Source: Desulfoscipio sp. XC116 (lineage in GTDB: Bacteria; Bacillota; Desulfotomaculia; Desulfotomaculales; Desulfallaceae). Taken from it: 64,000 nt of DNA. The DNA is taken from positions 1,488,001 through 1,552,000 of the forward strand of contig NZ_CP156660.1 in assembly GCF_039851975.1 (NCBI RefSeq), given 5' to 3'. Shown here piece by piece: positions 54,717 to 64,000 of this stretch. The notes beneath the pieces are model-generated. The model did not search any database. It saw only the letters and a program-made list of their open reading frames with translations, and was not told where the DNA came from. Each line of letters opens with the position of its first letter. Within the stretch, counting starts at the first letter, position 1. Both the position numbers and the translations under genes were made by a program.

Positions 54717-55031
54717 TCTCTTTCTCCGACATATTTTCTCTTAAAAGACGGTCAACATTTGCCTTTGCAGTTAGTACATTATGCATTTCCTTTTTTGCCG
54801 AATGGTACTTGCATAGGCTTTTTTCTTTTCAGAAAGCAGTTCAGAGCATTCCATTTGCAGAGCCTTAACGGTGGGTAATTTCTTGTTCCCCAAGCTGTCA
54901 AAAGCCGCCTTTGCCACTTTATGCAAAAGCAAATCAGCAGTATGTTCTTTATGGAATTTTTTAGAGCAGCCTGCCTTGCGGTAAGCCGTGTAAACATTAC
55001 AGGTTTTAGAATAGTTGCTGTTAATGTGCTC
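54694..55031 (-). pseudogene. Relaxase (mobilisation nuclease) C-terminal fragment
   Basis: Minus-strand frames read NYSKTCNVYTAYRKAG, KKFHKEHTADLLLHKVAKAAF, KKLPTVKALQMECSELL and, after one frameshift at about 54785, LTAKANVDRLLRENMSEKEK to TAA 54694. This is the C-terminal tail of relaxases carried by Tn4555/CTn-type integrative elements of Firmicutes (compare SKTRDVYVAYRKAGYSKKF). The catalytic N-terminal domain is absent. It shows that an integrative or mobilisable element once occupied this place. Confidence 0.75.
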
Positions 55032-55217
55032 ATTGTCATGTTACGTTTTCCTATTCATTAATTTTAAAAGAAATCACGGTTCTAATTAATGATTTATTCA
55101 GAAAAACCTAAATATCAATAGATGTTTTGAGGTAAAATAATTTGAGGGTACTGTACTGAGACGGGTTTCATCTTCCAGAGGAGTAATTTCCTGAGGAGGA
55201 TAGCAAGCTGAAGCGAT

Positions 55218-55246
55218 TTGTTTCATTAGTATATATACGTTATAAT
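55218..55246 (+). promoter_or_regulatory. Sigma-A promoter of miaB
   Basis: TTGTTT (55218-55223), a 17-base spacer and TATAAT (55241-55246). The predicted start lies near 55252, about 35 bases before the miaB ATG. Confidence 0.72.
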
Positions 55247-55248
55247 TA

Positions 55249-55268
55249 AGCAAGATTATTATCTTGCT
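55249..55268 (+). promoter_or_regulatory. Inverted repeat at the miaB transcription start
   Basis: AGCAAGAT and ATCTTGCT arms with a TATT loop, starting at the predicted first bases of the mRNA and ending 18 bases before the ATG. It could be a repressor operator or a 5' stabilising hairpin. Confidence 0.5.
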
Positions 55269-55286
55269 TTAAGGGAGTAGTAACGT

Positions 55287-56636
55287 ATGAGTGGAAAAAT
55301 TAATGACAACCCCAAAAAGTATCTTACAATTACCTTCGGCTGTCAAATGAATGAGCATGATTCGGAAATAATTGCCGGTATGTTGGAAAACAAAGGATAT
55401 TTATCTGCGGAAGGTCAGAATGATGCTGATTTAATTATTTTAAATACTTGTTGTGTTCGGGAAACTGCTGAGAATAAAGTGTTCGGTCTTTTGGGCAGGC
55501 TTGGCCAGCTTAAAAAACAAAAACCCCACCTGATTATAGCCATGGGTGGATGTATGAGCCAGCAAGAGCATATTGCTCAAAGAATAAAGCAGCGTTTCAG
55601 ATATGTGAATATTGTGTTTGGTACGCATAACATACATGAATTGCCGGCATTAATAGACCGGGCGGAGTATCAAAAAAACCAGATCATTGATATTTGGCCT
55701 GATAGAAAGGATATTAGTGAAGGACTGTCGGTAAAACGCTTTCACGGTGTTCGAGCCTGGGTTAGTATCACGTACGGATGTAATAATTTTTGCACTTATT
55801 GCATAGTACCGTATGTGCGGGGCAGGGAGAAAAGCAGGCAGCCGGAGGCCATTATCAGTGAAATTCAGGAACTGGTGCGGCAGGGCTACCAAGAGGTAAC
55901 CTTGCTGGGGCAAAATGTTAATTCATATGGTAAAGATTTATCCTCCGGTATTGACTTTGCAGATTTACTGGTAAAAATCAACGAAATAAAAGATTTAAAA
56001 AGAATTCGTTATATGACTTCTCACCCGAAGGATTTTTGTGATAAACTGGTTACAACTGTTTCACATTTACCAAAAATATGTGAACATATACATCTTCCCG
56101 TGCAGGCAGGGAGTAACAATATATTAAAAAAAATGAATCGGGGATATACGCGTGAGCATTATCTGGAATTAGTGGATAAAATTCGCACAGCTATGCCGGG
56201 TGTATCGCTAACCACTGATATAATGGTAGGTTTTCCGGGTGAGTCTGACGCTGATTTTGCGGATACTGTTGATCTTGTAAAAAATATTGAATATGACAGC
56301 GCTTTTACTTTTATATATAACAAAAGACAAGGAACTCCCGCGGCCGGTATGCAAGACCAGGTTCCTGACCAGGTAAAAGTAGCTCGTATTGAGAAACTAA
56401 TTGCTTTGCAGAATGAGATAAGTTTACGTAAGAACAAGCTGGAAGTGGGTAAAACATTAGAGTGCCTTGTAGAGGGGCCCAGTAAAACAAATGCGGATTT
56501 AATGAGCGCGAGGACAAGAACCAACAAAATTGCGGTTTTCCGGGGTAAACAAGATATGGTGGGTATGCTGGTTCCTATACTTATTACCGGATGCGGTCTT
56601 ACTCATCTTGAGGGAGAGGTTATCCCGGCGGAATAA
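55287..56636 (+). CDS. miaB: tRNA-2-methylthio-N6-dimethylallyladenosine synthase
   Basis: Radical-SAM methylthiotransferase acting on A37 of tRNAs reading UNN codons. 449 residues. N-terminal UPF0004 domain with cysteines in FGCQMNEHDS, NTCCVRETAE and MGGCMSQ; radical SAM cluster in GCNNFCTYCIVPYVRGRE; C-terminal TRAM domain (LECLVEG). GGAGTAG precedes ATG 55287. It has its own promoter and opens the miaB-ylbF-mutS-mutL segment, a common order in Clostridia. Confidence 0.95.
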   Translation: MSGKINDNPKKYLTITFGCQMNEHDSEIIAGMLENKGYLSAEGQNDADLIILNTCCVRETAENKVFGLLGRLGQLKKQKPHLIIAMGGCMSQQEHIAQRIKQRFRYVNIVFGTHNIHELPALIDRAEYQKNQIIDIWPDRKDISEGLSVKRFHGVRAWVSITYGCNNFCTYCIVPYVRGREKSRQPEAIISEIQELVRQGYQEVTLLGQNVNSYGKDLSSGIDFADLLVKINEIKDLKRIRYMTSHPKDFCDKLVTTVSHLPKICEHIHLPVQAGSNNILKKMNRGYTREHYLELVDKIRTAMPGVSLTTDIMVGFPGESDADFADTVDLVKNIEYDSAFTFIYNKRQGTPAAGMQDQVPDQVKVARIEKLIALQNEISLRKNKLEVGKTLECLVEGPSKTNADLMSARTRTNKIAVFRGKQDMVGMLVPILITGCGLTHLEGEVIPAE

Positions 56637-56654
56637 ATATATGGGGGTTATAAG

Positions 56655-57035
56655 ATGTCAATATTGGAAAAAGCCTATGAGCTGGGGCAAGAGATTGCAG
56701 CTTCCGATGAATTGAATGATATGAAGAACTCGGAAATGTCGATGATGCAAGACCCGGAGGCACAGGGCATTATTCAGGAGTTTAACACAAAACAAAAACA
56801 ATACCTGGAAATGCAGAAGCAGGGGCAGCAATTAACAGATGATCAAAAAAAGGAAGTTTCCGATTTGGAAAAGCGGATGCTTGATAATCCATTGATATAT
56901 AATTACTTTCAGGCGCAGCAAAAATTTGAAAAAGTATTAGAGCAAATAAATGGTATCATATCAAATGCCATAACCGGTCAACAAAGCTCATGCAGCGACG
57001 AGTGTTGCTCCTCCTGCAGCGGTTGCGGCCATTAA
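56655..57035 (+). CDS. YlbF/YmcA family protein with cysteine-rich tail
   Basis: 126 residues, all-helical Com_YlbF fold: ILEKAYELGQEIAASDEL, then QEFNTKQKQYLEMQKQGQQL and DLEKRMLDNPLIYNYFQAQ. B. subtilis YlbF, YmcA and YaaT form a complex that carries [4Fe-4S] clusters and affects RNase Y and sporulation phosphorelay. The last 14 residues contain Cys113, 117, 118, 121 and 124 among Ser and Gly, a likely cluster or metal site. It starts 18 bases after miaB and ends at a terminator. Confidence 0.82.
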   Translation: MSILEKAYELGQEIAASDELNDMKNSEMSMMQDPEAQGIIQEFNTKQKQYLEMQKQGQQLTDDQKKEVSDLEKRMLDNPLIYNYFQAQQKFEKVLEQINGIISNAITGQQSSCSDECCSSCSGCGH

Positions 57036-57047
57036 GCAGGTAAAACT

Positions 57048-57074
57048 CCCGGCGTACTTGCGCCGGGTTTTTTT
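57048..57074 (+). terminator. Intrinsic terminator after the YlbF-like gene
   Basis: CCCGGCG and CGCCGGG arms, 6-base loop, then seven T residues. Confidence 0.9.
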
Positions 57075-57141
57075 GTTGATTGAGCTTGATAAAATTCTAT
57101 AGCTGTCACTTTTTTTGTACTCGAATGAATAAATTTCTTTA

Positions 57142-57150
57142 TGTTATAAT
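57142..57150 (+). promoter_or_regulatory. Extended -10 promoter of mutS
   Basis: TGTTATAAT matches the extended -10 consensus, with a T-rich upstream region but no good -35 hexamer. It would start transcription about 14 bases before the mutS start codon, leaving room only for the GGGAGGG ribosome binding site. Confidence 0.5.
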
Positions 57151-57170
57151 ATTCCCGGGAGGGACATGCT

Positions 57171-59783
57171 GTGGTTTATACTCCGATGATGCAACAATAC
57201 TTGAAAATTAAACAAAATTATCAAAACCATATTCTCATGTTTCGCATGGGAGATTTCTATGAAATGTTTTTCGATGACGCCCTGCAGGCCTCCAGGGATT
57301 TGGAAATTGCTTTAACCGCTCGTGATGGAGGCGGCGGGAAAAAAGTACCCATGTGTGGTGTACCTCATCATGCCGCCCAGTCCTATATTGCCAGGCTTAT
57401 TGCCAAGGGACGCCGGGTGGTCATATGTGAACAAACCGAGGACCCCAGACAGGCCAAGGGGTTGGTAAAAAGAGAGGTAACCAGAATTGTTACCCCCGGT
57501 ACAGTAATGGAAGGACAGTGTCTGGATGATAAAAAGAATAACTATCTGGTAGCGGTCCTTATTGAAGAAAGAGGATGCGGGCTGGCTTTTTCCGATATTT
57601 CTACCGGTTTATTCAGGGTCACGCAGTTTAACGGCGATAACGCTTTTCACGAACTGGCTGACGAGTTGTATCGTCTGCAGCCGGCCGAGCTGTTGTTGCC
57701 TCGCAGCTATAACGGTGATTTAGCGGAAAGAATGGCGGGAATGGCTAATATGTTGATAACCGCAATTGACGACCATTTATTTAACCCGGAGTCATCAGGC
57801 AATATCTTGGATCGCCAGTTTGGCGAGAGTTGGCGGCAAGCCGGTATTGACCGTTTGATATTTGGTTCACGGGCTGCCGGAGCTATCTTATTTTACCTGC
57901 TGGATACCCAAAAAAGAAGCCTTGAACAAATTAACAGTCCCCAAATATATAACACCAATCAATTTATGAAGATAGATGCTGTATCACGGCGCAATTTAGA
58001 ATTAACCGGCTCTATTAAAGACGGGATGCGTTGGGGTACTCTTATTTGGGTACTTGATTATACATGCACGGCCATGGGTGGCCGATTATTAAAACAGTGG
58101 ATTGAGCAGCCGCTGTTAGATGTAGTTTTAATAAACAAACGCTTAGATGCAGTCGAAGAACTGCTAAATAATTTAATTATGCGTACTCAGATTAAGGAGG
58201 CTTTAAAACAGGTCTATGATTTGGAACGCCTGGCGGGCCGGGTAGCTTACGGCAGTGCCAACGCCAGGGATTTGCTCGCGTTAAGAAAATCTTTTGATGT
58301 CTTGCCTGTAATTAAAAAATTAAGTAATGATGTAAATGTAGAACTTTTAATAGATTTAATTGGCTGTCTGGATGATATGTCCAATATAAATGAACTGCTG
58401 CATAAGGCACTGATTGATAATCCACCGATGCAAATTAAGGATGGTGGCATCTTAAAACCGGGCTATAACCCCGAGGTAGATAGTCTGCGTGCTGCCGGCA
58501 GTAACGGTAAAGATTGGCTGGCTCGATTGGAGTCTGAAGAACGTGAGAAAACGGGTATTAAATCTTTAAAGGTGGGTTATAATAAAATATTTGGCTATTA
58601 CTTGGAAGTTACCAAGGCCAATTTATCTCAGGTGCCCGATTATTATATACGCAAACAAACACTGGTTAATGCTGAACGGTTTATTACCAACCAATTAAAA
58701 GAATATGAAGATATGATCATTGGCGCGCAAGACCGTCTGATGCAGCTGGAATTCGAGTTGTTTAGTGAAATCAGGCAAAACGTGGCTGGCGAGCTGCATC
58801 GCATACAGAATACCGCCAGAAATTTGGCAGTTTTAGATGTGCTGATTTCCCTGGCTGAGGCGGCCGAAAGGGCAAACCTGGTCAGGCCGATTGTTAATAC
58901 CGACAAAAAAATTGTTATTTCGGATGGCAGGCATCCGGTGGTGGAACGGGTATTAAATGCCGGCGACTTTGTGCCCAACGACACATATATGGGTGAAAAC
59001 AGTACATTAATACTGCTTACCGGTCCCAATATGGCCGGGAAAAGCACATATATGCGTCAGGTAGCACTGATTATATTAATGGCGCAGATGGGAAGCTTCG
59101 TGCCGGCGGCCAAAGCTGAAATAGGTGTGACTGATTATATTTTTACTCGCATTGGCGCGGCGGATGATCTGGCCGGTGGGCGAAGTACTTTTATGGTGGA
59201 AATGAGCGAATGCAGAGACATTGTTAATAATGCTACCCGGAATAGTTTGATTATTATGGATGAAGTCGGCAGGGGCACAAGTACATATGACGGTATAAGT
59301 ATCGCCAGAGCCTTGGTGGAATACATCCATAATAATATCGGGGCGAGAACGTTGTTCTCTACCCATTATCACGAATTAACCGATTTGGACGCTCTATCCG
59401 GAGTAGTGAATTGTACGATAAGTGTGCATGAGGAGAATGATGAGATTATTTTTTTAAGAAAGGTATTACAGGGTAAGGTGGACAAGAGTTACGGCATCCA
59501 GGTGGCCCGGCTGGCCGGCTTGCCGGAGGAGGTTTTGAGCCGGGCCCAGGATGTTTTGCACCAGATGGAAAAGCGCAGCGGTGTTGCAGAATATCAGGGT
59601 AAAAAAGATGATGCGGCTGCCGCCGGTTCAATAACCGACCGGTGTGCTGACGCCAGAGAAAAATCTCTGCTTAGGGAAATCGCTAAAATAAATGTGATGC
59701 AACTGACCCCCTTGGAAGCGCTGAACTTACTGTACCACTGGACGGAAAAAATTAAAAATGAAGTAGAAGCAGGGGGTAATTAA
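57171..59783 (+). CDS. mutS: DNA mismatch repair protein MutS
   Basis: 870-residue mismatch-recognition ATPase. The mismatch-contact Phe and Glu are in GDFYEMF (Phe29, Glu31). The ATPase domain has Walker A GPNMAGKST from Gly618, GAADDLAGGRSTFMVEM, Walker B DEVGRGTSTYDG, and the THYHELT histidine. The C-terminal dimerisation region (LTPLEALNLLYHW) is intact. GGGAGGG precedes GTG 57171. mutL starts 3.1 kb later; two unrelated genes are inserted between them. Confidence 0.96.
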   Translation: MVYTPMMQQYLKIKQNYQNHILMFRMGDFYEMFFDDALQASRDLEIALTARDGGGGKKVPMCGVPHHAAQSYIARLIAKGRRVVICEQTEDPRQAKGLVKREVTRIVTPGTVMEGQCLDDKKNNYLVAVLIEERGCGLAFSDISTGLFRVTQFNGDNAFHELADELYRLQPAELLLPRSYNGDLAERMAGMANMLITAIDDHLFNPESSGNILDRQFGESWRQAGIDRLIFGSRAAGAILFYLLDTQKRSLEQINSPQIYNTNQFMKIDAVSRRNLELTGSIKDGMRWGTLIWVLDYTCTAMGGRLLKQWIEQPLLDVVLINKRLDAVEELLNNLIMRTQIKEALKQVYDLERLAGRVAYGSANARDLLALRKSFDVLPVIKKLSNDVNVELLIDLIGCLDDMSNINELLHKALIDNPPMQIKDGGILKPGYNPEVDSLRAAGSNGKDWLARLESEEREKTGIKSLKVGYNKIFGYYLEVTKANLSQVPDYYIRKQTLVNAERFITNQLKEYEDMIIGAQDRLMQLEFELFSEIRQNVAGELHRIQNTARNLAVLDVLISLAEAAERANLVRPIVNTDKKIVISDGRHPVVERVLNAGDFVPNDTYMGENSTLILLTGPNMAGKSTYMRQVALIILMAQMGSFVPAAKAEIGVTDYIFTRIGAADDLAGGRSTFMVEMSECRDIVNNATRNSLIIMDEVGRGTSTYDGISIARALVEYIHNNIGARTLFSTHYHELTDLDALSGVVNCTISVHEENDEIIFLRKVLQGKVDKSYGIQVARLAGLPEEVLSRAQDVLHQMEKRSGVAEYQGKKDDAAAAGSITDRCADAREKSLLREIAKINVMQLTPLEALNLLYHWTEKIKNEVEAGGN

Positions 59784-59855
59784 TTGAAGGAGATTAATGT
59801 AAGTTCAGAGAATTGATAATTTTAAAGGTTTGATACGGGTCGGGGGTGGATAGAT

Positions 59856-61541
59856 ATGTATATAGGTGTTGATGTGGGAGGTACCAGTACCAATGCGGTC
59901 CTTTTAGATGATGGTTTGGTGCGGGCTTCCGCTACTGTGCCTAGCAGTGATGACATCATTACATCTTTAATGGAAGCACTGGATAAGATCATGAAGGGTG
60001 TGCCCGCGGAGTTAATAGAACGGGTTGTTTTCAGCACTACATTAATTACAAATTTAATTGCGGAAAAAAAATATGATCCTGTGGGCTTGATTCTAATACC
60101 CGGACCCGGTTTAAGCCACGTGCACTATCAGTATCACACCGATACATTTATTATTTCAGGTGCCATGGATTACAGGGGGCGGGAAATTATGCCCCTGCGT
60201 GATGATGAAATAGAAAAGGCTATTAATGGTCTAAAGAAAAAAGGATATAAAAAGGTGGCTGTGGCAGGTAAGTTTTCCTCAAGAAACAATAAGCATGAAA
60301 AAGAGGTTGTTTCCAGAATTAAAAGCTCGCACCCGGACTGGCATGTGGAAATGGGGCATCAAGTGGCCGGTCAATTGAATTTTCCGCGGCGTGTGGTTTC
60401 CACCATGCTGGCTTGCGCTACCAGGGACAAATATTCTTTTTTTGTGGACTCGGTGCAGTCTGCCCTTACCATGCGGGGTATTGAGGGAACAGTATATATA
60501 CTGAAAGCGGATGGCGGTACAATGCCGCTTAATAAGGTGACCGGTGTACCTATAGAAACTATTTTCAGCGGTCCTGCGGCCAGCACCCTGGGTGTACAGG
60601 CACTAATACCGCCAGGGGAGACAGCGGTTGTAGTCGATATTGGCGGTACTACCACTGACTTGGCCCTAATTTTAAGCGGTCAGCCGCTGCTCTCTGCCAG
60701 GGGGGCTCCGGTATACGATCAGCTGACTCAGGTGCGGGCACTGGCGGTTAAGTCTGTGGCTGTGGGTGGGGATAGTTTAGTAGAGCGGGTGGGCAAAGAG
60801 ATTTTAGTTTATTCTGAAAGACTGGGGCCGCCATACTGTCTGGGCGGGCCAATGCCCACACCTACAGATGCTTTAAGGGTGCTGGGGCTTACCAGACTGG
60901 GCAATGCCAAAAAGGCCTTCGAAGCTATGGATATGCTGGGCCAATCGCTGGGCATGAGCCATAGTGAGGTGGCCCAAAGAATAATTAATATGGTTATAGA
61001 CGTAATTGTGCAGGAAATTGAGGCTATGTTTAAACAATGGGAACAGGAACCGGCTTATCGTGTTTGGGAGGTTCTGCAAAAACGCAGGGAGCGTCCGGAT
61101 ATGGTTGTGGGGGTGGGCGGTGCAGCGGCCGGTTTTATAACCCAGATAGCGGCTCGAATAGGCGCCAACCCTGTGATCCCGCCCTATGCATCGGTAGCTA
61201 ACGCTATAGGGGCCGCGGTAGCAATTCCCACACTGCAGGTTAACCTGCGGGCAGATACCGAGCAAGGCTATTACATTATTGAGCAAGAGGGCTACCAGGG
61301 AAAAATTGAAAAAGCCTCATTTACGGAAGAGGATGCCTTGCTTTTGGCCGGTGACTGGTTGAAAAAACGGGCTGAAAAATACGGATTAAGCAAAGCGGTA
61401 GAAAAAACTGAATTTACCCGCCGGGATGTGTTTACCATGGTACGCAACTGGATCACTACCGGAAGGATTTATGATATTAGCGTACAGACACCAAGAGGTA
61501 TTATGGGTCATATTGGAGCAAGGGGTGGATTTAATGATTGA
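59856..61541 (+). CDS. Hydantoinase/oxoprolinase A-family protein (HyuA-like)
   Basis: 561-residue ASKHA-fold ATP-utilising enzyme. VDVGGTSTNAVLLDD at the N-terminus and VVDIGGTTTDLALI in the middle are phosphate-binding motifs; FSGPAAS and GVGGAAAGFI complete the fold. It is the ATPase subunit type of hydantoinases, 5-oxoprolinases and acetone carboxylases, but no HyuB partner is adjacent. The last bases overlap the deacetylase-like gene by 8, so the two are co-translated and probably work together. Substrate unknown. ATG 59856 follows GGGGGTGG. Confidence 0.82.
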   Translation: MYIGVDVGGTSTNAVLLDDGLVRASATVPSSDDIITSLMEALDKIMKGVPAELIERVVFSTTLITNLIAEKKYDPVGLILIPGPGLSHVHYQYHTDTFIISGAMDYRGREIMPLRDDEIEKAINGLKKKGYKKVAVAGKFSSRNNKHEKEVVSRIKSSHPDWHVEMGHQVAGQLNFPRRVVSTMLACATRDKYSFFVDSVQSALTMRGIEGTVYILKADGGTMPLNKVTGVPIETIFSGPAASTLGVQALIPPGETAVVVDIGGTTTDLALILSGQPLLSARGAPVYDQLTQVRALAVKSVAVGGDSLVERVGKEILVYSERLGPPYCLGGPMPTPTDALRVLGLTRLGNAKKAFEAMDMLGQSLGMSHSEVAQRIINMVIDVIVQEIEAMFKQWEQEPAYRVWEVLQKRRERPDMVVGVGGAAAGFITQIAARIGANPVIPPYASVANAIGAAVAIPTLQVNLRADTEQGYYIIEQEGYQGKIEKASFTEEDALLLAGDWLKKRAEKYGLSKAVEKTEFTRRDVFTMVRNWITTGRIYDISVQTPRGIMGHIGARGGFND

Positions 61542-62892
61542 TAAAAAAACCGGTTTAATCTTTTTCCCGGCGTTTGACTGGGCTATATCCCCTACTCACC
61601 CCGAAAGGGAAGAGAGATTGCTTTATACCCGTGATCAAATTTTTGAAGAGGGTGTAATGGATCTACCCCAGATTCATGAGTATGCTCCACGGTTAGCTTC
61701 TTTGCATGACGTCTCCCGGACGCATTTTTGCGTGCCACGGGTACAGAGCCAGGTAACCGAGGCGCATTTGATTGCTGCCGGGTCTACATTGCAGTTGGGT
61801 GACAGTGTTGTCAATGGTGAAATTAAAAACGGTTTTGCCATGGTGCGTCCGCCAGGACACCATGCTATGCGTGTTGTCCATGGCAATCGCGGGTTTTGCA
61901 GTATTAATAACGAAGCTATCCTTGTAGAGTACCTGCGCCGCCGTCACGGTATCAGGAAAATTGCCATTGTAGACTCTGATGCTCATCATGGGGACGGAAC
62001 CCAGGATATTTTTTATCACGACCCTGATCTTCTATTTATATCATTTCATCAAGACGGGCGCACTATCTTTCCGGGTACCGGCTTTACCCATGAATTGGGC
62101 GGACCCGGAGCCTACGCCAAAACGCTGAATGTTCCTTTGCCTCCGGGTACGGCGGACGAGAGTTTTATGTACGTGGTGGATAATCTTGTATTGCCGGTAG
62201 TTAAGGATTTTCAACCGGAGATTATAATCAATTCGGCGGGACAAGACAATCATTATACCGACCCACTTGGCAGTATGCGGTTTACGGCCAGAGCTTATGC
62301 CGATTTTACTAAAAAATTACAACCTCACTTGGCTGTTCTGGAGGGCGGCTATGCCATTGAAACCGCTCTGCCCTATATTAATTTGGCAATTATTCTGGCC
62401 TTGGCCGGTGTGGATTATTCCTATGTGATGGAACCGGATTATTGGCCGGGGAGGTTTAAAGAAAGCCCGGAAAGAATAGGACAGGTACATCGTATGGTGG
62501 AGCAGTTGCTGGAATCATGGTCCCAAAAGGATAAAGTGGATTTGCCCAAAATATTCGGGGACGGTAAATATTACCAGCGTAAGAAATTTATATATTACGA
62601 TACAGATTACATTGAAGAAGAACAATTTGAGAAAGTGCGCATGTGTCCTGATTGTCCCGGTTATATTATCCTGGAATCCCGGGCTGAAAGAGGTTATCGG
62701 TCACCGGTCAGGATTTATGCCGTATCCATACCTTTTCAGGCTTGTCATGCCTGTCAGAGTGAAGCCTATGATATATACGAGCAAGCGAAAAAACAAAAAG
62801 AATGTGATTATGTTTATATGCAAGATAAAACTACCGATACTTGCATGTCTTATGAGAAGAACAAGGGGCAGGAATGGGTAACGGAAGGATAA
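61534..62892 (+). CDS. Histone deacetylase/acetylpolyamine amidohydrolase family protein with C-terminal zinc ribbon
   Basis: 452 residues. The HDAC domain (1-345) has RPPGHHA, DSDAHHGDGTQDIF with the metal Asp and catalytic histidines, FISFHQDGRTIFPGTG, NSAGQDNH, and LEGGYAIE. Such zinc enzymes remove acetyl or other acyl groups from lysine or polyamines. The extra C-terminus carries two CxxC pairs (Cys371/374, Cys404/407), likely a zinc ribbon, and a Lys/Glu-rich end. ATG 61534 lies behind AGGGGTGG and overlaps hyuA. The upstream in-frame start at 61426 lies within hyuA and is not needed. As it is acyl-transfer related, it may oppose AcuA, but this is speculation. Confidence 0.85.
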   Translation: MIDKKTGLIFFPAFDWAISPTHPEREERLLYTRDQIFEEGVMDLPQIHEYAPRLASLHDVSRTHFCVPRVQSQVTEAHLIAAGSTLQLGDSVVNGEIKNGFAMVRPPGHHAMRVVHGNRGFCSINNEAILVEYLRRRHGIRKIAIVDSDAHHGDGTQDIFYHDPDLLFISFHQDGRTIFPGTGFTHELGGPGAYAKTLNVPLPPGTADESFMYVVDNLVLPVVKDFQPEIIINSAGQDNHYTDPLGSMRFTARAYADFTKKLQPHLAVLEGGYAIETALPYINLAIILALAGVDYSYVMEPDYWPGRFKESPERIGQVHRMVEQLLESWSQKDKVDLPKIFGDGKYYQRKKFIYYDTDYIEEEQFEKVRMCPDCPGYIILESRAERGYRSPVRIYAVSIPFQACHACQSEAYDIYEQAKKQKECDYVYMQDKTTDTCMSYEKNKGQEWVTEG

Positions 62893-62897
62893 GGGAA

Positions 62898-64000
62898 ATG
62901 CCGAAAATAGTTTTATTGAACGAGTATACCGCCTGCCGCATTGCGGCAGGCGAAGTGATTGAACGACCTGCATCTATAGTCAAGGAATTAGTGGAGAATT
63001 CATTGGATGCCGGGGCCGGTTTGGTGAATATATCTATTACCGGTGGAGGCACTGAAACGATTGAAGTGGTTGACAACGGATGCGGTATAAGCCAGGAGGA
63101 TACTCCCCTGGCTTTTCAGCGTCATGCCACCAGCAAAATTAGAAGCGCTGCCGACCTGGAAAATATTGATACTTTGGGCTTTAGGGGCGAGGCGCTGCCC
63201 AGTATTGCTGCGATATCGCATCTATCCGTAAAAACCAGGGTGTCGGGCAAAAACGAAGGTTATCATATGGTTATCAAGGGCGGACAGGTGCTGCAAGAAG
63301 GCCCGGTCGGTTGCCGGGTGGGTACAATGATTAGTGTGCGGGATATTTTTTTTAACACTCCGGCACGTCGTAAACATTTAAAATCAAAGTCCACGGAAGG
63401 TGGGCTTATTGCTGATTTAATATATAAAATGGCTTTAACCAGACCGCAAACCAAGCTTATTTTTAACCATAATGGACGGGAAATTTTCCGTTCCCCGGGT
63501 TCCGGTAGATTAATTGATGTACTGGCCTCGGTTTATGATATGCGTGCGGTAGATATGATGCTGGCGATGAATGGTGAAAATGCCGGTGTTAAAGTGGAAG
63601 GTTTTATAAGTAAACCGGAATTAAGTCGAAGCACGCGCCAGCAAATAACCGTGGCCGTAAATGGACGGGTAGTACGCAGCGCAGCCGTTAATGCGGCGCT
63701 TGATGAAGCATACCGGGGTAAGTTAACTGTTGGTCGCTACCCGGTGGCGGTTATATTAATCCGGCTTGAGCCGGGCAAAATAGATGTTAACGTACATCCG
63801 GCTAAAATGGAAATAAAAATGGATAATGAGGAACAAATACAGTCGTTGGTTACCACTGCGGTTCGTGCGGCGCTAAGGGATACTGATTTAATTCCTCGCC
63901 GAACCAAATTGCCCGCTGACAGCGAGCCTTATAAACTAAGTTTCCCTGCATCGGTAAGTCAATACTCAATTCCCCGGGAGAGCCCGGTTGAAGTACGCAA
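62898..64000 (+). CDS. mutL: DNA mismatch repair protein MutL, 3' end outside the window
   Basis: The first 367 codons of MutL, open to the end of the window. GHKL ATPase motifs are clear: AAGEVIERPASIVKELVENSLDAGA split over the first helix (Glu acting as base in KELVENS), DNGCGI, HATSKI, TLGFRGEAL, and FFNTPARRKHL. The second domain with NGRVVRS and VHPAKMEI follows. The C-terminal endonuclease/dimer domain lies outside. AAGGGA precedes ATG 62898, 5 bases after the deacetylase-like gene, so it shares that transcript. Confidence 0.95.
   Translation, partial: MPKIVLLNEYTACRIAAGEVIERPASIVKELVENSLDAGAGLVNISITGGGTETIEVVDNGCGISQEDTPLAFQRHATSKIRSAADLENIDTLGFRGEALPSIAAISHLSVKTRVSGKNEGYHMVIKGGQVLQEGPVGCRVGTMISVRDIFFNTPARRKHLKSKSTEGGLIADLIYKMALTRPQTKLIFNHNGREIFRSPGSGRLIDVLASVYDMRAVDMMLAMNGENAGVKVEGFISKPELSRSTRQQITVAVNGRVVRSAAVNAALDEAYRGKLTVGRYPVAVILIRLEPGKIDVNVHPAKMEIKMDNEEQIQSLVTTAVRAALRDTDLIPRRTKLPADSEPYKLSFPASVSQYSIPRESPVEVR

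Follow-up and report, generated by a model that had tools for sequence, protein, structure and literature searches.

The hyuA-hdac gene pair

The window analysed here is the whole stretch of 64,000 nucleotides taken from Desulfoscipio sp. XC116 (contig NZ_CP156660.1, positions 1,488,001 to 1,552,000 of the forward strand), and the subject of this report is a pair of overlapping genes close to its 3' end. The first encodes an ASKHA-type ATPase related to HyuA and the second a protein of the histone deacetylase (HDAC) superfamily. Comparison of the genomes indicates that the two genes have been passed on jointly in many bacteria, most of them anaerobes, and in some archaea. The unit consists of the following features:

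59856..61541, + strand: hyuA-like gene, 561 amino acids, ASKHA-type ATPase related to HyuA/CapA/Apc-alpha, without a HyuB partner (PF05378, 4.4e-28; PF01968, 1.1e-37; AlphaFold2 model)
61520..61528, + strand: ribosome-binding-site-like AAGGGGTGG of the HDAC gene, within the end of hyuA (sequence)
61534..61541, + strand: overlap of hyuA and hdac, 8 bases (open reading frame coordinates)
61534..62892, + strand: HDAC-superfamily gene, 452 amino acids, with a catalytic domain (residues 3-335) and a C-terminal zinc-ribbon-like domain (PF00850, 2.4e-68)

The hdac gene starts at the ATG at 61534, with the ribosome-binding-site-like sequence 5' of it; a longer open reading frame (ORF) from 61426 is not needed because relatives align from near residue 1. 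The 8-base overlap of hyuA and hdac and their location between mutS and mutL, which had been noticed in a sequence-only reading of this DNA, were confirmed.

Co-inheritance and adjacency

The HDAC C-terminal domain was detected in 78/113 genomes of the order to which the window belongs. The phylum sample comprised 398 genomes, of which 159 have this domain, 157 have a close HyuA and 154 have both, where a close HyuA is a match with an E value of 1e-51 or better (a cut of our own choosing; 20 generic HyuAs were found at 1e-31 to 1e-41). The hypergeometric value of this co-occurrence, which ignores phylogeny, is 5e-100. Among the matches listed for the phylum sample, 138 genomes were common to the two lists of 150 rows each (HDAC matches and HyuA matches), and in 132 of them hyuA immediately precedes hdac, both genes having the same orientation. 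The six non-standard genomes comprise two in which hyuA was matched in part, two with the genes on different contigs, one in which the order differs at the end of a contig, and G002, where the genes lie apart on opposite strands. The adjacency of hyuA and hdac beyond chance was thereby confirmed, and so was the conservation of the two genes as neighbours in relatives, for which the sequence-only reading had suggested a survey. The distance matrices of HyuA and HDAC are correlated as well (r 0.83, 49 pairs), a result that was not used as evidence because any co-inherited genes correlate.

The pair was also found in Desulfobacterota, Negativicutes, Oxalobacteraceae, Spirochaetes and archaea. A HyuA scan of named genomes, from which the best 80 of 537 confirmed candidates were taken, yielded 59 first loci (L186-L244), with HDAC downstream of HyuA in 53, a contig edge in four and no HDAC in two; in other words, HDAC follows in 53 of the 55 loci whose contig extends far enough. 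Moorella, Desulfovirgula, Syntrophomonas, Desulfosporosinus, Veillonella, Phascolarctobacterium, Herminiimonas, Oxalobacter, Desulfotignum, Spirochaetes metagenome-assembled genomes (MAGs) and two archaeal MAGs are represented among these 53. At the more distant named loci (L245-L265), HDAC stands beside HyuA only in the archaeal L245 and L247. In the phylum of Desulfotignum at least 49 of the 198 sampled genomes, including Desulfotignum itself, have the pair-type HDAC, the others being 53-65% identical to it; among the matches listed, other HDACs remain at 45% or less, save for fragments in genomes already counted. All 30 fetched Desulfobacterota loci have HyuA upstream of HDAC. For the order of Herminiimonas a full-length match was obtained only in the query genome itself (1/200).

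The Methanolinea-type HyuA has matches in 35 of the 148 sampled genomes of the phylum of Methanolinea. An archaeal HDAC scoring above 320 bits was found in 33 of the same 148 genomes, all of which are HyuA genomes. In the remaining two HyuA genomes, G530 and G601, HyuA is accompanied by pieces of an HDAC gene, so that a matching HDAC is present in 35/35, two of them as fragments. The two genes are adjacent in 20 of these genomes. Of the 15 others, four have them on the same contig at a distance of 40 kb to 1 Mb and eleven on different contigs. This archaeal co-inheritance without adjacency is the strongest single sign of a functional tie, with the proviso that related genomes are not independent.

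Six archaeal HyuA genes without an adjoining HDAC (L273, L279, L283, L288, L292 and L246) are followed on the 3' side by a small Toprim-like ORF, for which PF01751 was just under the cut-off in L273, the only locus scanned.

Genomic context

The pair is flanked in the window by genes of the mismatch-repair operon, which are given here as context outside the unit:

57171..59783, + strand: mutS (NCBIfam)
62898..64000, + strand: start of mutL, likely at ATG 62898, running off the window (NCBIfam; full ORF in locus L185)

The complete order on the + strand is miaB, a ylbF-like gene, mutS, hyuA, hdac and the start of mutL (based on NCBIfam for miaB, mutS and mutL and on Pfam for ylbF), and 3' of mutL the genome has ORFs that we take to be miaA-like, hfq-like and spoVK-like. 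The ylbF-like gene, located at 56655-57035 in the gap between miaB and mutS, has a Cys-rich tail and a halo-CC-star NCBIfam match below the cut-off. An Rfam scan of 55000-64000 gave nothing above threshold.

The location between mutS and mutL is not general. It was examined in 60 loci, picked by HyuA matches to span families and in part situated on short contigs, and found in 20 of them. In two others (L178 and L179) the pair has miaB/ylbF on one side and miaA on the other, mutS and mutL both being absent from the locus, and the remaining 38 have it elsewhere or without these neighbours, with the genes side by side in 36 and apart in L175 and L176. The description of the pair as inserted in the mismatch-repair operon thus holds for the window and for 20/60 chosen loci, yet it captures one location only, and a role in mismatch repair was dropped given that 40/60 chosen loci do not have the mutS-mutL flanks. 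ORF clustering of the fetched loci revealed no third gene that recurs beside the pair across lineages, the neighbours found at single loci being mostly unannotated. Since most loci elsewhere keep the genes side by side and no third gene recurs, the unit is the pair and not the mismatch-repair operon. A lineage-bound neighbour is the F420-ligase-like gene in L204, L215 and L241. In three Desulfobacterota loci (L216, L220 and L222; Pfam for L216) an EpmA-like class II tRNA-synthetase gene is located 3' of hdac.

HyuB as a partner

The sequence-only reading had advised a check for HyuB homologues, and this brought to light no HyuB partner of the pair HyuA. The sole PF02538 (HyuB) gene found in the genome of the window is 1.45 Mb away, directly 3' of another HyuA gene (491 of its C-terminal codons were covered), and none stands beside the pair HyuA in the window. 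Within the order, HyuB is present in 51/113 genomes. It was not found in 36 of the 75 listed pair genomes, of which at least six (G014, G040, G051, G097, G105 and G109) are represented by split or stop-containing matches; completeness is 90% or more and contamination 5% or less in 26 of the 36. Likewise, 11 of the 15 named pair genomes gave no HyuB match (16 loci taken, 15 genomes searchable, completeness not given), and one of the four with HyuB, the genome of L186, equals G068 of the order sample by identical coordinates. As many pair genomes have no detectable HyuB, the pair HyuA does not depend on it. A HyuB encoded elsewhere in the genome was dropped as a candidate partner, being distant, preceded by another HyuA and absent from many pair genomes.

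The HyuA protein and its ATP site

The AlphaFold2 model of HyuA (predicted local distance difference test, pLDDT, 90.4) has 9h03, 5svc, 5m45, 5l9w and 6yra as best PDB matches and is nearest to subunits of N-methylhydantoinase, acetone carboxylase, acetophenone carboxylase and caprolactamase. In fact, subunits of hydantoinase/ketone carboxylase family members fill the first seven places among the structural matches (E values 1e-32 to 1e-25), and the next match is at 2e-8. The pair HyuA shares the ASKHA-type fold and the phosphate motifs with HyuAB/CapAB (ATP-dependent hydantoinase, 5-oxoprolinase, caprolactamase) and with the alpha subunit of the Acx/Apc ketone carboxylases, and these provide the closest solved structures. 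The two motifs are located as follows, where alignment A3 is the alignment of 51 pair-type HyuA rows:

59871..59894, + strand: phosphate-1 motif DVGGTSTN, residues 6-13 (D13 in 49/51 rows of alignment A3; N13 in the window protein)
60636..60659, + strand: phosphate-2 motif DIGGTTTD, residues 261-268 (D261, G263, G264, T265, T266 and D268 invariant, 51/51 rows)

Both DxGGT motifs are present across the family. The phosphate-1 motif of HyuA-type proteins has been described (PMC8453981), and D6, D261 and D268 match the CapA residues Asp11, Asp295 and Asp302 of that paper. D6 is kept in 51/51 rows, and Lys27, the counterpart of CapA Lys32, in 50/51. The adenosine motif GxxPGP is kept only in part (alignment read by eye).

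In contrast to CapA (696 residues), the pair HyuA counts 561 residues, i.e. 135 fewer, and no HyuB/CapB gene adjoins; the constant neighbour is an HDAC-fold zinc enzyme. With regard to the C-terminal beta-barrel domain expected of a HyuAB-type subunit, this shorter length goes with sequence matches that stop at residue 453. CapAB requires bicarbonate for its reaction (PMC8453981). In HyuAB it is the HyuB subunit that carries a D-H-D-H metal site, and no such subunit is encoded beside the pair HyuA. For Apc-alpha an interface fingerprint R/KERiDsxG in the alpha/beta domain has been reported (PMC5214803). In the corresponding segment of the pair HyuA a Gly replaces the Glu (G102) in 51/51 rows and the R/K-E-R part is not kept, but the aligned CapA segment (6yra) is also without the fingerprint. 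Since CapA does have a HyuB-type partner, the comparison does not discriminate, and the missing fingerprint was dropped as an argument against HyuB-type partnering.

The HDAC protein

The AlphaFold2 model of the HDAC protein (pLDDT 89.8) has the arginase/deacetylase fold. Residues 4-332 superimpose on 8szu_B with Z 41.4 and a root-mean-square deviation of 2.1 over 319 residues (VIA-align), and Z is about 41 to bacterial HdaH/Kdac1 structures. The fold of the catalytic domain and the catalytic residues are thus common to the pair HDAC, the HdaH-type deacylases (Kdac1, KpHdaH, HDAH) and HDAC6. Row counts refer to an alignment of 49 pair-type HDACs:

61858..61863, + strand: catalytic His109-His110 in RPPGHH (49/49 rows)
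61978..61986, + strand: zinc ligands Asp149 and His151, D.D.HH (49/49 rows)
62236..62253, + strand: signature AGQDNH, residues 235-240, with Asp238 as third zinc ligand (49/49 rows; 0/29 non-pair HDACs)
62344..62352, + strand: GGY motif with catalytic Tyr273 (49/49 rows)
62569..62889, + strand: C-terminal zinc-ribbon-like domain, residues about 346-452, with C371/C374/C404/C407 (each Cys in 46/49 rows)

The residue set of the classical deacylases (His-His dyad, Asp-His-Asp zinc ligands and the Tyr of GGY) is invariant in the 49 rows. The full RPPGHH is present in 45 and an RPC variant in four, and EGGY is kept; both motifs have been tied to robust deacetylases, i.e. acetyl-removing enzymes (PMC11532494). 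The surroundings of the third zinc ligand set the family apart: the pair HDAC has AGQDNH, whereas HDAC6 has AGFDA and other HDACs have AGQD, AGMD or AGFD followed by other residues. AGQDNH was present in 286 of the 290 pair-type HDAC frames found by motif, a count of frames and not of genomes, as some loci derive from the same genome. Of the four others, L040 and L271 are truncated frames, and L269 and L299, which represent a single archaeal genome, read AGQDVH. The motif scan overlooked members with RPC for RPP, such as that of Herminiimonas (L338); the alignment includes four such rows.

The residue that follows DP is Leu in 25 and Ile in 24 of the 49 rows, and the Glu gatekeeper of HDAC10 (PEG motif) is absent throughout, for which reason an HDAC10-type polyamine deacetylase was rejected. 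Bacterial ApaH enzymes, however, carry PIS at the gatekeeper position (PMC11532494), and polyamine activity of the pair HDAC is therefore conceivable without the Glu.

The extra C-terminal zinc-ribbon-like domain and the constant genomic partner HyuA distinguish the pair HDAC from the classical deacylases. The double CxxC of this domain, to which the sequence-only reading had already pointed, is indeed present as C371-x2-C374 and C404-x2-C407. It is absent from three rows, L241 (Veillonella) and the archaeal L245 and L247, and from all 25 signature-bearing HDAC frames of Methanolinea-type archaeal loci. No Pfam family exceeded the cut-off for this domain and no PDB sequence match was obtained. 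As the structural comparison of the model barely reaches the domain, no fold is claimed for it. NCBIfam models at E 0.001 gave no deacetylase match and one DnaJ match for the 49 HDAC family members.

Trees and subfamilies

The 80 pair-type HyuAs (the 51 rows of alignment A3 and 29 further archaeal sequences) form one group versus 15 generic HyuAs with a support of 0.98, and the 68 pair-type HDACs form one group versus 29 other HDACs with a support of 1.0. Within these groups, the archaeal MAG loci L190 and L233 fall together with mainly Bacillota pairs in the HDAC and the HyuA tree (0.65 and 0.56 for the first joins, 0.92 and 0.90 for the next), and they have two neighbouring genes in common. 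The trees look as if hyuA and hdac of these loci had moved together; contamination of the MAGs may also account for the placement. Because a separate bacterial clade of pair HyuAs is unsupported (0.07), we make no statement on the relative age of the archaeal and bacterial forms.

A neighbour other than HyuB is not confined to the pair. In L250-L253 and L265 a HyuA of about 516-518 amino acids adjoins a gene of the S-Me-THD/DUF917 type (Pfam in L250, L251, L252 and L265), which is likewise a non-HyuB neighbour, but it is not an HDAC and these HyuAs are outside the pair clade. The suggestion that the S-Me-THD-linked HyuAs are the sister of the pair clade was rejected, as the tree places them apart; the pair clade groups first with the four generic HyuAs L254, L255, L257 and L260 (support 0.97; the rooting on L264 is arbitrary). 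As other HyuA lineages adjoin S-Me-THD/DUF917, HyuA-type ATPases are not tied to a single kind of partner gene, and at least three kinds of neighbour, HyuB, S-Me-THD and HDAC, are observed.

Proposed function and alternatives

That HyuA and HDAC are functionally coupled is, in our view, very probable, because the two are conserved neighbours, co-occur in archaea without adjacency and have no HyuB next to HyuA. The two genes appear to constitute an old two-component module, each gene being a distinct subfamily with catalytic motifs largely kept. Their joint inheritance suggests a two-part enzyme or pathway that has not been described so far, with a HyuA-type ATPase and an HDAC-type partner. Nothing on a HyuA-HDAC pair was found among the papers listed from the open-access literature; the two of them that mention both a histone deacetylase and a hydantoinase concern other subjects, judged by the title and the opening of the abstract.

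As a mechanism we tentatively favour an ATP-activated amidohydrolase in which the HDAC-type zinc subunit replaces HyuB. HyuA would bind ATP and phosphorylate an amide or lactam carbonyl, as has been proposed for CapA and 5-oxoprolinase; the activated intermediate would be handed from one subunit to the other; and the zinc site of HDAC, in place of the HyuB metal site, would hydrolyse the activated C-N bond. Put in general terms, and with a little more reserve, there might be a HyuB-independent class of ATP-dependent amidohydrolases in bacteria and archaea, in which a HyuA-type kinase passes an activated amide to an HDAC-fold zinc hydrolase; its members would until now have gone simply under the general names 'hydantoinase A' and 'histone deacetylase'. 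From the proposal in the sequence-only reading of a two-component enzyme acting on an acylated or cyclic amide, the functional coupling is retained on the basis of co-inheritance and adjacency; complex formation, ATP dependence and the amide substrate are inferred. Of the two outcomes that the reading had named as refuting, loss of the neighbourhood in relatives and a HyuB partner of HyuA, neither was observed. Since the Methanolinea-type archaeal HDACs do without it, the zinc ribbon of the bacterial proteins probably serves in docking or in recognising the substrate. Because the pair mostly occurs in single copy, is strongly conserved and has no recurring third gene, its substrate probably belongs to a housekeeping or damage-repair route, as a small metabolite or a modified macromolecule, and is less likely to be a niche nutrient. 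Cyclic t6A, which exists as a hydantoin, was considered and dropped for want of evidence.

Several observations weigh against an ATP-activated amidohydrolase of this kind. Classical HDACs are not known to need ATP. None of the 290 loci is open in one frame across both genes, and the long open frames of L149 and L117 were rejected as natural fusions on inspection. HyuA has no adjoining HDAC in L239 and L240 (Desulfovibrionaceae) despite room on the contig, and with the genes non-adjacent in 15/35 archaeal genomes and separated in two genomes of the order (L175 and L176), the data do not call for a tight complex. Furthermore, in 7/7 genomes of the genus of the window (window 59871-59936; L032-L036, L039 and L041) HyuA has N13 and T27, and Lys27 is Ile or Glu in four further genomes of the order. 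The CapA counterparts by alignment, Asp18 and Lys32, were assigned to nucleotide binding (PMC8453981). As the proteins of the genus are otherwise highly identical to those of the window (80-91% for HyuA and 81-93% for HDAC), N13/T27 is a change common to the genus in a gene that has been kept intact; it may reflect an altered use of the nucleotide in this genus.

The archaeal non-adjacency and the separation in L175 and L176 fit equally well with two sequential enzymes that share a small-molecule biosynthetic, salvage or damage-repair pathway without forming a complex. HDAC would then deacylate and HyuA would be a separate ATP-dependent kinase or condensing enzyme, as is MfnF of methanofuran biosynthesis. 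The absence of a natural fusion from the 290 loci agrees with such a pathway, and so does the retention of RPPGHH (RPC in 4/49) and EGGY, with their reported link to robust deacetylases (PMC11532494). The strict order and short spacing of hyuA and hdac in 132/138 genomes among the matches listed, on the other hand, argue against it, as does the ORF clustering, in which no third pathway gene accompanies the pair from lineage to lineage; we regard this explanation as possible but doubtful. It appears unlikely that the genes constitute a regulatory pair, in which HDAC, as a lysine deacetylase, would control HyuA or some other protein by deacetylation, in analogy with the action of AcuC on AcsA. 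The Leu or Ile instead of the Glu gatekeeper in 49/49 rows is in line with such a role, considering that the Glu-to-Leu change in HDAC10 raises lysine deacetylase activity and that BsAcuC-AcsA is a case of a bacterial HDAC whose operon products regulate one protein (both from PMC11532494). The window differs from that system in having no acetyl-CoA synthetase gene between miaB and mutL. Nevertheless, the otherwise conserved Lys27 of HyuA is no obligatory deacetylation target because it is Thr in the whole genus of the window. Moreover, no gene recurs beside the pair across lineages, although no search was aimed at acetyltransferases and single-locus neighbours are mostly unannotated.

An activase-like role, in which HyuA would be an ATP-driven conformational activator of HDAC and phosphorylate no substrate, could be read from its weak similarity to the BadF/FtsA/MutL-type ASKHA families, its weak structural matches to dehydratase activators and the changed ATP-site residues in one genus. 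It is improbable in view of the seven best structural matches, all to hydantoinase/ketone carboxylase subunits at E values far from that of the next match. Chance neighbourhood or inertia within the mismatch-repair operon, finally, would suit the position between mutS and mutL in the window and 20/60 chosen loci, but 36 of the 38 chosen loci located elsewhere or without those neighbours keep the genes side by side and the archaeal co-occurrence without adjacency contradicts it, so that this explanation is scarcely credible.

Implications

With the AGQDNH signature and the pairing as guides, members of the family can be recognised easily and the hypothesis of an ATP-activated amidohydrolase can be put to a direct test. 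If it is true, some 'histone deacetylases' of anaerobes and methanogens would be subunits of an ATP-driven hydrolase and not protein deacetylases, and a partnership with HyuB should not be assumed for HyuA proteins. It would also provide a function for a gene pair of 154/398 genomes in the phylum sample and widen both the HDAC and the hydantoinase superfamilies.

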